Assembly: GCF_017794765.1 (NCBI RefSeq)
Contig: NZ_CP051236.1
Coordinates: 3,052,176 to 3,116,175 of the forward strand
Direction: 5' to 3'
Source: Nitratireductor sp.
GTDB lineage: Bacteria; Pseudomonadota; Alphaproteobacteria; Rhizobiales; Rhizobiaceae
Length of the DNA stretch: 64,000 nucleotides
How positions within the stretch are numbered: position 1 is the first letter of the stretch; every line of letters begins with the position of its first letter. Shown piece by piece: positions 19,367 through 25,821 of the stretch. The notes beneath the pieces were generated by a model that worked only from the letters and a program-made list of their open reading frames with translations, was not told where the DNA came from and searched no databases. The position numbers and the translations under genes are program-made.

Positions 19367-19586
19367 AATGGTCCCCGTGAGCTCTTCAAGGCCGCGCTTC
19401 TCAGCGCTGGCTTGTCCAACGTTTCAGGACGACACCCCCAAAATGCGTCCCACACCCCACCGTTATTCGCAACGCAAGATAATGTTGCGGAATACAGACT
19501 CCAAATCACGCTTTCTTACTTCATGTTACGGCATAAGAAAAACACGAGTGTCTTATAACTTTCTGAATTGTTTACTGAATTTTAAC

Positions 19587-19612
19587 GAAAAGGGGGATGC
19601 ATCGCATCCCCC
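19587..19612 (-). terminator. Intrinsic terminator of ftsZ
   Basis: On the minus strand GGGGGATGC-GAT-GCATCCCCC forms a perfect 9-bp stem followed directly by TTTTCGTTAAAATT. It lies 30 bases after the ftsZ stop and separates the division operon from lpxC. Confidence 0.85.
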
Positions 19613-19641
19613 CATCAAACGTTTGTAACAGAGTCTTTCGC

Positions 19642-21336
19642 CTAGTTTGCTTGCCGGCGAAGAAACGCGGGAATCTCCAGGTGGTCCTCTTCCTGGATGT
19701 TCCGGGCCTGTGTGGTGAGTCGGCCATGCTCATCCAGCCGCCCCTGACGCGGTGCGTAGAGCTGCCCTTCGCTTTCCGCCGCGCGACGCGGCTGAGGCGC
19801 TGCCTGACGCAGCTTGGGTTCGCGGGGCTGCTCGGCATAACCTTGATCGCCGTCGCGGCGGGAAAGCCCGTGGGTAAGGCGCTTGATCAGCCCCATCGGG
19901 CCACGATCTTCATGCTCCTGCGATTTCGCTTCCATCTCGGCTTTCACCACCGGTGGGAAGTCTTCAACGCGGGGCATCCGGGGAGCGGAGACCTGTTCCT
20001 CCTGAACCCGCATCTGGGGCTGCGGCTCGAGGTGCTCGGCCACCGGTGCCGATTGGACCGGCTTGGGTGCCGGAGCAGCGGCTCGCGGAGCCGGCTGTAC
20101 CGGCTGGGCACTGCGAAAGAGCGAGCTTTGCGGCTGAAAACCGCCATTGCTCATGGCCGGTCGCGCAGCCTGAGAGGCTGCTGGAGCCACTGCAGGCGCA
20201 GAGGCAGGCTCTGCCGTTGTACGCTCAGCCTGGCGAATGGCCTCGGCCACCGGATCGGCAGCAGGCTGCGGCTTCGGTTCAACGGAAGCGGCCGCCGGCC
20301 GCTGCGCCTCGATCGCTCGCGGTTGCTGCATTGGACGCGTAGCCGTAGCAGGAGCGGAAATCTCGGCAGCGGACTTGTCGATGCCTGTCGCCACCACAGA
20401 AACGCGGATCACACCTTCGAGATCTTCGTCGAACGTCGCACCGAGAATGATGTTTGCGTCCGGATCGACCTCCTCGCGAATGCGGGTAGCTGCCTCGTCC
20501 ACCTCGAACAGTGTCAGGTCGCGGCCGCCGGTGATCGAGATCAAAAGACCGCGAGCACCCTTCATGGAGCTCTCGTCCAGCAACGGATTGGCGATTGCCG
20601 CCTCGGCAGCGGCCATTGCACGGCCTTCGCCGGAAGCCTCGCCCGTGCCCATCATGGCCTTGCCCATCTCGCGCATCACCGAGCGAACGTCGGCGAAGTC
20701 GAGGTTGATCAGGCCTTCCTTGACCATCAGGTCGGTGATGCAGGCAACGCCTGAATAGAGCACCTGGTCAGCCATCGCGAAAGCGTCGGCGAAGGTGGTC
20801 TTGTCATTGGCGATGCGGAAGAGGTTCTGGTTCGGAATGACGATCAGCGTATCGACGCATTTCTGCAGTTCCTCGATACCGGCTTCCGCCGTCTTCATGC
20901 GGCGCTGGCCTTCGAAATGGAACGGCTTGGTGACGACGCCGACAGTCAGAATACCCTTCTCACGGGCAGCGCGCGCCACAACGGGAGCAGCACCGGTGCC
21001 GGTACCGCCGCCCATGCCTGCGGTCACGAAGCACATATGGGTGGAGGACAGGTGATCGACCAGCTCGTCGATGCATTCTTCGGCGGCGGCTTTGCCAACT
21101 TCGGGCTGCGAACCGGCACCCAGCCCCTCGGTCACGGCAGCACCAAGCTGGATCAGGCGTTCGGCCTTGGATTGGGTCAGAGCCTGTGCGTCCGTATTGG
21201 CGACGACGAACTCGACGCCACGCAGGCCGGCATTGATCATGTTGTTGACGGCGTTTCCGCCCCCGCCTCCGACACCGAACACGGTGATGCGTGGCTTCAG
21301 CTCGGTAATATCCGGCTTCTGCAGATTGATAGTCAT
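19642..21336 (-). CDS. ftsZ: Cell division protein FtsZ
   Basis: This 564-aa tubulin-like GTPase forms the Z-ring. The tubulin signature GGGTGTG is at residues 109-115 and the T3 loop [13 protein letters not shown] is at 21-33. The GTPase core ends near residue 320. It is followed by an unusually long Pro/Ala/Gln-rich disordered linker and the conserved C-terminal peptide ([12 protein letters not shown]) that binds FtsA. The extended linker is typical of Rhizobiales and Caulobacterales FtsZ. It follows ftsA after 66 bases and ends at a strong terminator. Confidence 0.97.
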
Positions 21337-21402: not shown

Positions 21403-22719
21403 CTAGAAGTTGCTTTTCAGCCATTGGCTGACGCGCTGGAACCGGCCGCCAGTGCCGGTTGCGCGAGTGAAAATGCCGCTCTTGCCGCTGCGGCCACGGT
21501 TTTCGAACTCCGCTACCTGCGGATAAATCAACAGCCCCACGGACGCGGAAAAAGCCGCCCCCTTGGCCGCTTCGGGCAACCCCGCCACGCCGAGCGGACG
21601 CCCGAGCCTGACATTGCGCCCGAACAGTCGCCGGGTTGCTTCCGGCAAACCGACGAGCTGGCTCGCGCCCCCCGTCAGAACCACCCTGCGCCCGACAAGG
21701 CCGCCGTAGCCGGAGCGGCTGAGCTTGTCGCGAGCCATCTCCAGCGTTTCCTCGATGCGCGCACGGATGATCCTTGTCATAACCGCACGTGGCACCTGTA
21801 TCGGCTGTTCGCTCGGATCAGCCCCCATCGGGTGGATCGAAACGATATCCCGGTCGTCGCTCGAAGACATGAGCGCCGAACCGTGCATCACCTTGAGCCG
21901 CTCGGCATCCTCGAGCCGCGCCGAAAGGCCACGCACCAGATCCATGGTCACATGGTTGCCTCCCACCGGCAGCGCGTCGGCCCACACGAATTTTCCTTCT
22001 GCGAAAACAGAGATCGTCGTCGTGCCGCCACCCATGTCGATACAGGCAGCACCCATCTGCGCCTCATCGTCCACCAGTGCTGCCAGACCGCTCGCATAGG
22101 GTGTTGCCACCATACGCTCGACCGAAAGATGCGAACGGTTGATGCAAAGCTCCAGATTGCGCAGCGGCGCCGCATCCGCCGTCAGGATGTGCATGTCGAC
22201 ACCAAGCTCCGCGCCGACCATCCCGCGTGGATCGCGAATGCCGCGCTCTGCATCGAGGCTGAACCCTGTTGCCAGCGAATGCACCACTTCACGCTCGGTC
22301 TCGAGCCCCTGCCGCGCACCGGCCGCGAGAACACGGTTGATGTCGGACTGGGCGACTTCGTGACCGCCAAGATTGATCGACGCCGAAATCGTCTCGCTGC
22401 GCAGCCGCCCCGCCGACACGTTGACGATCAGCGAATCCACGGTCAGCCCCGCCATGCGCTCGGCCGCATCCACAGCCAGCCGGATCGCCTCCTCGGCCCG
22501 GTCGAGATCGACGATCACACCGGACTTCATGCCCTGCGACTGCTGATGGCCGATGCCGATGACTTTCACACGGTGAGTGCGGTGCCGCAGCGCCCGCCCC
22601 TCTTCCGCCGGCATGAGCCTGGCTATGATGCAGCAGACCTTGCTCGACCCGACGTCAAGCACAGTGATGATGCCGGAGCGGCGGGCAGCGCCTTTCTTGG
22701 GATCTGATAACCAGCTCAT
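21403..22719 (-). CDS. ftsA: Cell division protein FtsA
   Basis: This 438-aa actin-fold protein tethers FtsZ to the membrane. The ATPase phosphate-1 loop ITVLDVGSSKVCCII is near residues 18-32 and ACIDMGGGTTTISVF is the phosphate-2 region. The final residues (RFQRVSQWLKSNF) form the amphipathic membrane-targeting helix. Its ATG overlaps the ftsQ stop by 4 bases. Confidence 0.96.
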   Translation of the reverse strand: MSWLSDPKKGAARRSGIITVLDVGSSKVCCIIARLMPAEEGRALRHRTHRVKVIGIGHQQSQGMKSGVIVDLDRAEEAIRLAVDAAERMAGLTVDSLIVNVSAGRLRSETISASINLGGHEVAQSDINRVLAAGARQGLETEREVVHSLATGFSLDAERGIRDPRGMVGAELGVDMHILTADAAPLRNLELCINRSHLSVERMVATPYASGLAALVDDEAQMGAACIDMGGGTTTISVFAEGKFVWADALPVGGNHVTMDLVRGLSARLEDAERLKVMHGSALMSSSDDRDIVSIHPMGADPSEQPIQVPRAVMTRIIRARIEETLEMARDKLSRSGYGGLVGRRVVLTGGASQLVGLPEATRRLFGRNVRLGRPLGVAGLPEAAKGAAFSASVGLLIYPQVAEFENRGRSGKSGIFTRATGTGGRFQRVSQWLKSNF

Positions 22720-23636
22720 ATCTGCGCCCCGTCTGCAATTCGCGTCTTGTAGCGCTCACGCATCGCGTCCTGGTGCGCCTTGGCAGCTTCTTCCGAAAGA
22801 CCGATCGCCATACGATCGGCGAGCCGCATATCCACCGAGATGATATCGCGCGACAGAAGGCCGTTCTTGCGATCAAGCGCGGCAAGCGTTGCCAGTGTCA
22901 GCGCCTCGTTATTCTCGGGCAGCTTCACGGTCACACCGTTCTTAAGCCGCAGATCCCAGCGCCTGTCTCCAACACGGATATAGGCCCGCACCTCGTTTGC
23001 GATGGCTGGATGCCGGGCAACCTTGGCGATGAATTCAGGCCCGGCCTCGCGCGCGCCAACGCCGATCACCATCGGCAGCGCCGCATGACGTCCGCCATCG
23101 AACGGCGCGATCACAGCTCCGTCTTTCTCGATCAGCGACAGCTCATTGCCATGCTGCCAGATCGCAAAGGGCCTCTTCTCGGTGATGTCCACTTCGAGAG
23201 TGGCCGGATAGACCTTGCGCACGGCAACGCCTTCGACCCAGGGCAGACCGGAAAGACGCTGCCTGGCATCCTCGGCATTGAAGCCCACCAGAGCCGTCCA
23301 GCCGTTCAGGCCGACTTCCTGCAGAACATCGATCTCCGAGGTTTCCTGATTGCCGATCACGTTGACCTGCGCGATGGCAAGCCCCGTGCGCGCGGTGACG
23401 CTCTGCAGAACCTGCGGCAGATGCCCGCCCGCAACGATGCCGTAAACCGCCGTGGTTCCAAGCAGAACCGCAGTTGCGATCGTAGCGCCATAGCGTGGCG
23501 CTTCGACTTCCCCTGCATTGACCCTGTGCATGAAGCGCGCCGGACGGCGCAACCAGCGCGGCAATACGATGTCGCCTCCGCGAAAGCGTCCGCCGCTCCG
23601 GCCCGTTCCGGCTTGAGATGACGTCAGCGAGAACAC
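22716..23636 (-). CDS. ftsQ: Cell division protein FtsQ
   Basis: This bitopic divisome protein is 306 aa from a GTG at 23636. That start has the ribosome-binding site GGAGGA six bases upstream; an in-frame ATG at 23657 would add seven residues with no such site. A transmembrane helix (about 50-70) is followed by a POTRA domain beginning [15 protein letters not shown] and the FtsQ beta domain ([21 protein letters not shown]). It overlaps the ddlB 3' end by 13 bases, so translation is probably coupled. Confidence 0.93.
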
Positions 23637-24550
23637 GAGGCGTCCTCCACAATCCAACTCAACAATTCACCAAACCCAATTCCCGCCGCAGCGGCGATCT
23701 CGGGCACCAGAGAGGTTGGCGTCATGCCGGGCTGCGTGTTTACCTCCAACCAGACAAGCTCCCCATCATCGGATTTGCGATCGTCGAAACGGAAGTCGGA
23801 CCGGGACACGCCCCGGCAGCCAATAGCCTTGTGTGCCTTAAGGGCCAGTGTTTCTATTTTTTGGTAAATATTTGGTGAAAGTTTTGCCGGGCATTCGTGT
23901 TTTGAGCCGCCGGGAACGTATTTTGAATCATAATCGTAGAAGGCGTGCCCGACCGGAATGATCTCCGCGATGCCAAGCACCCGGTCCCCCATCACCGCGC
24001 AGGTGAATTCACGCCCGGCAATGTAGCGCTCCACCATCACGCGCTCGCCGTATTGCCACTCGGTGGACCCGATAATCTGCGGCGGGTTGCTCTGCCCTTC
24101 GGTGACAATGACCACACCGAAGCTCGACCCCTCATTGACAGGCTTCACCACATAGGGCGGCGCCATGGGGTGCTCGTTGCCGATCTCGAAACGGTTCACC
24201 ACCAGCGCATCGGCAACGGGAATACCCTCAGCCTTCGCCACCGTCTTGGCGAGCTGTTTGTCCATAGCCAATGCGGATGCGAGCACTCCCGAATGCGTGT
24301 AGGGGATGTCGAGATATTCGAGAATCCCCTGGATCGCCCCATCCTCACCGAACGGACCGTGCAATGCATTGAAGGCGACATCCGGGTTGAGTTCGGACAG
24401 AACACGCGCCACATCGCGCCCGACATCGACGCGCGTGACGGCATATCCCTCAACCTCGAGAGCATCGGCGCAGGCAGTGCCGGAAGAAAGACTGACCGGC
24501 CGTTCAGAGGAAAAACCTCCCATAAGTACGGCAACGTTCTTTCTCTTCAT
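23624..24550 (-). CDS. ddlB: D-alanine--D-alanine ligase
   Basis: This is a 308-aa ATP-grasp ligase making D-Ala-D-Ala for the pentapeptide precursor. It shows the N-terminal [14 protein letters not shown], the ATP-grasp core ([14 protein letters not shown]) and the C-terminal metal site [12 protein letters not shown]. It is the first gene of the ddlB-ftsQ-ftsA-ftsZ unit; upstream lies 308 bp of non-coding, GANTC-rich DNA that probably carries the promoter. Confidence 0.95.
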
Positions 24551-24858
24551 GGTCCGGCTACCCCCTTGTCCGGCCGCCCAGAATTTTGGGCGATAAGCTG
24601 CATTGGCCGAGTGAGACCTCCTCGATTAGGAAAGCCCCCGACCCGAACGCCGCGACTCAAATCAGTGATTACTTATGAGCCAAAGAATCAGAGGTTTGAT
24701 TCCATGGCAAGGGCTTGAGATTCCCGACGATTCAATTTTCTGAAAATTTTACACTTTGTGAACGCGAACACCCGTGTCGCGCAACTTGACACGGCACGGC
24801 TGTATGAGCGTCAAAATCGTAAGAGAACCTTGCGTCGCGCGAAAAGTCGCATGCGAGC
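24551..24858 (-). promoter_or_regulatory. Non-coding control region before ddlB-ftsQAZ with clustered GANTC sites
   Basis: This is the largest gap inside the division cluster, and I found no convincing gene in it. GANTC sites are at 24654, 24685, 24698, 24719 and 24729, five within 80 bp, in a visibly AT-richer stretch. An inverted repeat CCGTGTC (24772-24778)/GACACGG (24788-24794) lies 65 bases behind murB and could end that transcript, though no T-run follows. GANTC is the CcrM methylation site read with GcrA in alphaproteobacteria, so cell-cycle control of ddlB-ftsQAZ is the likely meaning. No exact -35/-10 pair could be assigned. Confidence 0.65.
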
Positions 24859-25821
24859 TCAGAGCATCTGCCCCAACAGCGGATCGATCTCGCGCCCCGG
24901 CCTGAATTCGCCAATGCGCTTGATCTCCCAATCCAGGCGAATCCCTGAATGCTCAAGCACACGAGCCCGGACCGTTTCACCCAGATATTCAAGGTCGTAC
25001 CCGCTCGCCGTACCCGTGTTGATCATGAAATTGCAATGCATGGGCGACATCTGCGCCCCGCCGATGGTGAGGCCGCGGCATCCCGCCTTGTCGACCTCTT
25101 TCCAGGCCGATGACCCGGGAGGGTTCTTGAACGTTGAACCGCCTGTCTTTTCACGTATCGGCTGCACGGTCTCGCGATGATGCTGCACGGCATCCATCTC
25201 TTTCTGGATCGTCTCCCGGTCTTCGGGATAGCCCTCCATCAGCGCAGAGGTGAAGATCAGATCTTTCGGCACCGAGGAATGGCGGTAGTCGTATCCCATA
25301 TCGGCGTTCGAGAAGATGTGTAGTTCGCCCTTCCGGTCAAGCGCGCGCACTTCCACGACCCGCTCCCTGGTCTCGACGCCATTGGCGCCCGCATTCATGC
25401 GCAGCGCACCACCCAGCCCGCCCGGTATGCCGTGGTAAAAGTGAAATCCACCGATGCCCGCCTCCAGCGCCGCGGCTGCGAGACGTTTGTCGGGGATGGC
25501 CGCTCCTGCACGGATTCGCGTATCCGAAACAATCTCTGCCTGCCCGAAGCCCTTGGCCGACAGGCGAACCACAAAACCACGAATGCCACCTTCGCGCACG
25601 AGAAGGTTCGAACCGATCCCCACCATGGTCACCGGAATGTCTTCCGGCACCGCCTTCAGGAAGGCAGCCAGATCCTCTTCATCAGCAGGCTGAAACAGCG
25701 CGTCGGCGGGCCCGCCGGCGCGAAACCAGGTGATCTTGTCCATGCCGGCGTCGGGTGTCAGACGCCCCCGCAGCCCCGACAGACGATCCCCGAGACGGTC
25801 GAGCAGAGCGGCCCCACTCAT
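24859..25821 (-). CDS. murB: UDP-N-acetylenolpyruvoylglucosamine reductase
   Basis: This 320-aa FAD enzyme reduces enolpyruvyl-UDP-GlcNAc to UDP-MurNAc. The FAD-binding segment [18 protein letters not shown] and the [13 protein letters not shown]-like [14 protein letters not shown] are visible, and the active-site serine region [15 protein letters not shown] is of the type I pattern. It overlaps murC by 4 bases and closes the upstream half of the cluster. Confidence 0.95.

Follow-up and report, generated by a model that had tools for sequence, protein, structure and literature searches.

The division operon ddlB-ftsQ-ftsA-ftsZ raises the question of what a dense run of GANTC sites is doing directly in front of it. 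The window (the whole 64-kb stretch of DNA analysed) carries these genes in this order on the minus strand with murB ahead, as identified by Pfam, and the original prediction placed five sites before the operon, GACTC at 24654, GAATC at 24685 and GATTC at 24698, 24719 and 24729, all of which were found. On the analysis given here, the array probably constitutes a σ70 promoter of ddlB-ftsQ-ftsA-ftsZ that would be activated by GcrA on CcrM-methylated DNA.

The upstream neighbour murB (24859–25821) is followed on the same strand by ddlB (23624–24550), which encodes the D-Ala-D-Ala ligase Ddl, ftsQ (22716–23657, from its predicted start codon), ftsA (21403–22719) and ftsZ (19642–21336). All five GANTC sites are located in the murB-ddlB gap (24551–24858, 308 bp). 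With the open reading frames as used, ddlB overlaps ftsQ, ftsQ overlaps ftsA by 4 bp, and the 66 bp gap between ftsA and ftsZ contains no GANTC. Given the shortness of this gap and the overlaps among ddlB, ftsQ and ftsA, the murB-ddlB gap is the closest sizeable non-coding DNA upstream of ftsZ, the distance from the ddlB promoter region to ftsZ being about 3.3 kb. The ftsZ-lpxC gap (19367–19641, with the LpxC reading frame as used), originally credited with a single GANTC, has two, at 19497 and 19631. Among loci with full flanks, ftsQ is downstream of ddlB in 136 of 136, ftsA in 134 of 136, and murB is upstream in 111 of 136; this gene-order set (30 relatives, 80 named loci and 26 from the family) differs from the set of 136 regions used for conservation below. 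As ftsQ and ftsA keep their order after ddlB, the murB-ddlB gap heads the same operon throughout the locus set.

The array had been called unusually dense against a background of about one GANTC per 256 bp, and this background is an overestimate. A sample of the genome made up of the window, which was itself chosen for its cluster, and 40 further stretches contains 1151 GANTC in 864 kb (23% of the 3.70 Mb genome), or 1.33 per kb, and the window has 90 GANTC where dinucleotide shuffles average 315. Across these 864 kb, five GANTC fall within 80 bp only in the array before ddlB, the runners-up having four. Among 5000 shuffles of the gap, one placed at least five sites inside 80 bp and 66 placed at least five anywhere in the gap. 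By a Poisson estimate a genome would hold 0.02 such clusters if GANTC occurred at its genome-wide frequency, 0.6 if twice as frequent and 45 if five times; with 0.6 to 45 clusters expected at two- to five-fold rates, density alone is not decisive and conservation is the proper test. What distinguishes the array is less its number of sites than the fixed geometry of its core and an extended motif.

Other clusters are present in the same genome. The dnaG-rpoD gap, upstream of rpoD, has five GANTC in 86 bp (L130:7946–8031, in the stretch from 3195001); the rpoD promoter is bound by Brucella CtrA, as cited in PMC2877005. The interval between pepN and a histidine kinase gene has four in 51 bp (L123:9271–9321, in the stretch from 1900001), some of which read TGATTCG, and the best NCBIfam match of this kinase is DivJ, far under the cut-off.

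The sites persist in relatives, a check proposed with the original prediction. All five, numbered here from the one farthest upstream of ddlB, are present in 10 of 10 genomes of the genus (the window genome and nine others), with spacings equal within 1 nt, and sites 3–5 form a core that is found in many genera of the family. Within the genus, strong conservation covers about 215 bp ahead of ddlB and does not extend to the murB-proximal part; because this whole block is conserved, the sites are indistinguishable from their surroundings and more distant relatives were compared. The core, CTTGCCA-N2-GAATC-N8-GATTC, is present in 88 of 136 ddlB upstream regions (88/129 in the family and 0/7 outside it), an uneven sample composed of 30 loci from a search of 40 relatives' genomes, 26 from a search of 161 family genomes and 80 family stretches. 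It is absent from the other 48, including most of the Rhizobium-type regions in the tree described below. Scoring used a profile from 49 non-redundant regions chosen for GANTC-N8-GANTC after CTTG, with both sites masked; each region was left out of its own profile, close relatives were kept in, and the threshold was the best reverse-strand score of any region, 7.2 bits.

As the training rows were selected for the pair formed by sites 3 and 4, the counts for site 3 (24698–24702; 62/88 core regions) and site 4 (24685–24689; 86/88) are biased upward. Site 1 (24729–24733) and site 2 (24719–24723) occur together in 26 of the 88 core regions, sites 3, 4 and 5 together in 61, and all five in 25, 10 of which come from the window's genus. 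In two small family genomes of one genus (L025, 1.1 Mb, and L235, 1.5 Mb) the core is degraded, scoring 1.8 and 11.5 bits respectively, and TGATTCG is still located at the expected site 5 distance, 43 nt.

Site 5, which took no part in choosing or scoring the regions, reads TGAGTCG with its flanks (24653–24659; CGACTCA on the plus strand) and is present in 80 of 88 core regions, 42–45 nt from site 3. Its spelling is TGAGTCG in 62, TGATTCG in 15, CGATTCG in one and something else in two, so that 78/80 match YGAKTCG; with the window's genus excluded, site 5 is found in 70/78 core regions and YGAKTCG in 68/70. YGAKTCG/K is quoted as the motif of GcrA-activated promoters in Caulobacter (PMC7987155). 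Sites 1–4 of the window do not match YGAKTCG and site 5 does, and only 143 of the 1151 GANTC in the genome sample match it on either strand. Across 73 non-redundant regions, conservation stops at the final G of YGAKTCG (1.46 bits, followed by 0.06 in the next column); the N position is G or T, and GA, TC and the outer T and G are constant, although the outer T run, GA, TC and G served as the anchor in placing the site and are therefore inflated, with the N column and the downstream columns unaffected.

The core can be read as a promoter on the minus strand. The proposed −35 element is TTGCCA (24705–24710, inside CTTGCCA at 24705–24711), whose first three letters, T-T-G, are invariant in 73/73 regions, the TTGCCA columns having been included in the profile; rhizobial −35 elements read CTTGAC. 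Sequence and column counts point to TGATTCTTT (24682–24690; TG, one base, TTCTTT) as an extended −10 element, which site 4 overlaps. The combination TTGCCA-N17-TTCTTT, in which TG stands one base ahead of TTCTTT, has σ70 geometry with a weak extended −10, the −10 being far from consensus, and GANTC would fall within 40 bp of the start predicted from the hexamers.

Two other candidates were considered. The sole promoter-like pair in a consensus scan, TTCACA/GAAAAT (24762–24735), lies outside the family core and was rejected as the main promoter; its TTCACA is intact in 8/10 genus genomes, and the pair may be a second, genus-level promoter. A combination of TTTGG and TGATTT between sites 4 and 5 was rejected on its spacing of about 13 nt. 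An alternative arrangement without site 3, in which a CTTG-type −35 is combined with AACTCTCTGATTC, was observed in L015, L053, L054, L180, L188, L190, L193, L194, L205 and L209; several of these regions have GAATC 13 nt past site 4 and a later TGATTC, and several have TTAACC boxes farther downstream.

The same scan of the 80 named loci found the core in 23, with site 5 in 23/23 and YGAKTCG in 22/23. These include Mesorhizobium, Aminobacter, Oryzicola, Pseudaminobacter, Aliihoeflea, Phyllobacterium, Chelativorans and Ochrobactrum (L069), together with two Rhizobium records and two metagenome bins. Among the same 80 loci, no core was found in the other Rhizobium records or in those of Roseibium, Labrenzia, Methylobacterium, Pleomorphomonas, Aureimonas, Martelella and Ahrensia, with the Rhizobium loci L051 and L075 scoring slightly below the threshold. 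A metagenome bin titled Sphingomonadaceae (L037) has the core and its ddlB groups with Rhizobiaceae rows, which looks like a wrong record label or a misbinned contig.

TTAACC is a CtrA half-site, and the window genome has neither it nor GGTTAA within 400 bp ahead of ddlB. A tree of Ddl was built from 135 rows, some of the named ones duplicating numbered ones. All members of one 58-row group (local support 86, below the 95 mark) have the core, with site 3 lost in three, and one of the 58 has TTAACC; among the 30 rows of a Rhizobium-type group, 3 have the core and all 30 have TTAACC. Mutual exclusion of the array and CtrA boxes did not reach significance on this tree (four independent pairs; sign test median p 1), and, since only four independent pairs exist, the contrast between core and TTAACC rests on few branches. 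Among 90 hexamers of the same composition, TTAACC ranks first both in the 26 core regions without site 3 and in the 48 coreless regions, and 23rd in the 62 core regions with site 3. The CtrA box is TTAA-N7-TTAA (PMC4287350), exact copies of which number zero in the 26 and the 62 core regions and average 0.25 per region in the 48 coreless ones.

The window genome encodes GcrA and a RAMA-domain methyltransferase of CcrM type (Pfam, over the cut-off), and the best NCBIfam matches of these proteins are the GcrA and CcrM models, with scores below their cut-offs. GcrA and a RAMA-domain protein are present in 39 of 39 relatives, so that absence of the factors does not account for the contrast between core and coreless regions. 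The Pfam GcrA model also scores over its cut-off in Sulfolobus acidocaldarius, and a Pfam match alone is thus not fully specific. GC skew of the sampled stretches has its minimum at about 0.65 Mb and its maximum at about 2.5 Mb, with ddlB at 3.08 Mb; if these mark origin and terminus, ddlB would be copied fairly late and would spend much of the cycle fully methylated.

The original proposal of methylation-timed operon expression is strengthened by the conservation, by the flanks of site 5 and by the GcrA- and CcrM-type genes, while the timing by methylation itself is what we infer. Promoter data on GANTC and GcrA from Caulobacter, together with GcrA data from Brucella, point to GcrA activation on methylated DNA at this locus. 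In Caulobacter ftsZ and mipZ, CGACTC, the reverse complement of GAGTCG, is required for activation by CcrM (PMC3708114), and in Brucella, GcrA depletion impairs division and GcrA ChIP peaks are rich in GANTC (PMC6813329).

In the proposed mechanism, the promoter elements, start site, methylation and binding are predicted, as are the sign of the effect and its timing. Polymerase carrying the housekeeping σ would use the fair −35 TTGCCA and the poor extended −10, and GcrA bound to σ and to the methylated sites would compensate for the weak −10. Site 3 would be located in the spacer, site 4 would overlap the −10, and site 5 (TGAGTCG), which of all the sites most resembles a GcrA-activating one, would be near +18. 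Replication would leave the sites hemi-methylated and CcrM would restore them late in the cycle, so that division-gene output would track replication.

Several published observations count against this mechanism. In Agrobacterium, of the same family, ftsZ is reported to be hardly lowered by CcrM depletion (PMC11514494); in Brevundimonas subvibrioides, GcrA-activated genes are reported to lack an extended motif (PMC7987155); Ensifer cell-cycle gene promoters are described as lacking GANTC enrichment (PMC8725594); and the main text of the Brucella GcrA paper leaves ddl and the fts genes unmentioned (PMC6813329). GcrA and CcrM regulons are reported to diverge fast between genera (PMC7987155). Further points against it are the 48 coreless regions, the poor match of the −10 to consensus, and the NCBIfam scores of GcrA and CcrM under their cut-offs.

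The same sequence might instead be a conserved housekeeping σ70 promoter in which GANTC is incidental to the promoter letters and methylation is neutral, which is judged unlikely. Such a promoter would fit the conservation of the entire block in the genus, and the N position of site 4, on the −10, is T in 73/73 non-redundant regions, as if its letters matter to σ; yet neither site 3 nor site 5 falls in a hexamer, site 5 being past the proposed start, and the N of site 5 varies between G and T while the surrounding letters hold. GANTC is rare genome-wide, yet the 82 upstream regions with site 3 hold on average 6.5 copies per 400 bp, against 0.55 to 3.3 for seven palindromes of the same composition. 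The placement of site 4 on the −10 also suits regulation of the opposite sign, in which full methylation, or GcrA on the −10, would block the promoter and hemi-methylation after replication would free it. Activation of Caulobacter ctrA P1 was thought to need hemi-methylation, and GcrA occupies positions −35 to +7 of that promoter when it is fully methylated (PMC3667746); repression is nevertheless very improbable here, as the motif of site 5 is linked to activation and Caulobacter ftsZ peaks in activity when fully methylated (PMC3708114).

There is still less reason to expect a shielded switch, in which a DNA-binding protein such as MucR would cover the cluster and keep its sites unmethylated. 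Caulobacter P169, which is bound by MucR and has four GANTC, is hypomethylated, and S. meliloti MucR likewise shields sites (PMC5172544), but the flanks of site 5 fit GcrA. That the cluster arose by chance or is a piece of an RNA leader element is scarcely credible. The roughly 0.6 clusters per genome expected at twice the genome-wide rate would allow for chance, which is rejected not for the density but for the conservation spanning many genera. An RNA leader or terminator is rejected on negative results throughout: Rfam gave nothing at E up to 1 over 24400–25000, the proposed leader showed no folding advantage over shuffles (z −0.60), no terminator-like site was found, and conservation falls off past site 5 rather than continuing into the leader.

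With GcrA activation of a methylated σ70 promoter as the preferred reading, a broader proposal can be made, tentatively and with considerable doubt. In a group comprising Mesorhizobium, Aminobacter and Phyllobacterium and including the window's genus, the division operon may have moved from CtrA to GcrA/CcrM control, with a three-site methylation-dependent promoter in place of the CtrA boxes of Rhizobium type. The supply of FtsQ, FtsA and FtsZ could then be one reason why CcrM is needed in these bacteria, against what has been supposed in print for Rhizobiales, and clustered sites might give a sharper switch than a single site. If true, a single essential operon would have been rewired between CtrA and GcrA/CcrM.

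Methylation of ftsZ and mipZ was judged in 2013 to be an unlikely reason for CcrM essentiality in Rhizobiales, whose promoter regions for these genes seldom contain GANTC (PMC3708114), and the Agrobacterium study examined 200 bp ahead of each open reading frame (PMC11514494). Tight operons may place the promoter several genes upstream, here before ddlB. Among open-licence papers, no main text was found to link GANTC or CcrM to ddlB or ddl, or CtrA to ddlB and ftsQ.

The closest parallels are in Caulobacter crescentus, where the ftsZ and mipZ promoters likewise serve division genes and contain CGACTC/GAGTCG. The mipZ copy of the motif is carried by the reverse strand, close to the start, and has another GANTC nearby, as proposed here; in ftsZ CGACTC is located between −35 and −10 (PMC3708114). 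In contrast to both, the promoter proposed here precedes ddlB, about 3.3 kb upstream of ftsZ, and has a fixed core with three to five sites and no TTAACC-type CtrA boxes. Caulobacter ctrA P1 resembles it in having GANTC adjoining the −35 and methylation-dependent GcrA binding, which is predicted here, but has one site by the −35 rather than a run of three to five (PMC3667746, PMC4287350). Of the Caulobacter cell-cycle starts that have a GANTC no more than 50 bp upstream, some share its placement between −35 and −10, a position that accompanies activation at 40–60 min; just 11 of these 96 starts have two or more sites, unlike the array described here (PMC4287350). In a related bacterium, the Agrobacterium repABC-Ch2 promoter also has three GANTC and its expression is CcrM-dependent, although it serves replication from a second origin rather than division genes (PMC11514494).

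If the proposed mechanism is correct, a large rhizobial group couples division-protein supply to methylation as Caulobacter does, via a different promoter. The comparison suggests a promoter that works like those of Caulobacter mipZ and ftsZ but is separate from them, with its own fixed architecture, in bacteria where such control had been judged unlikely.
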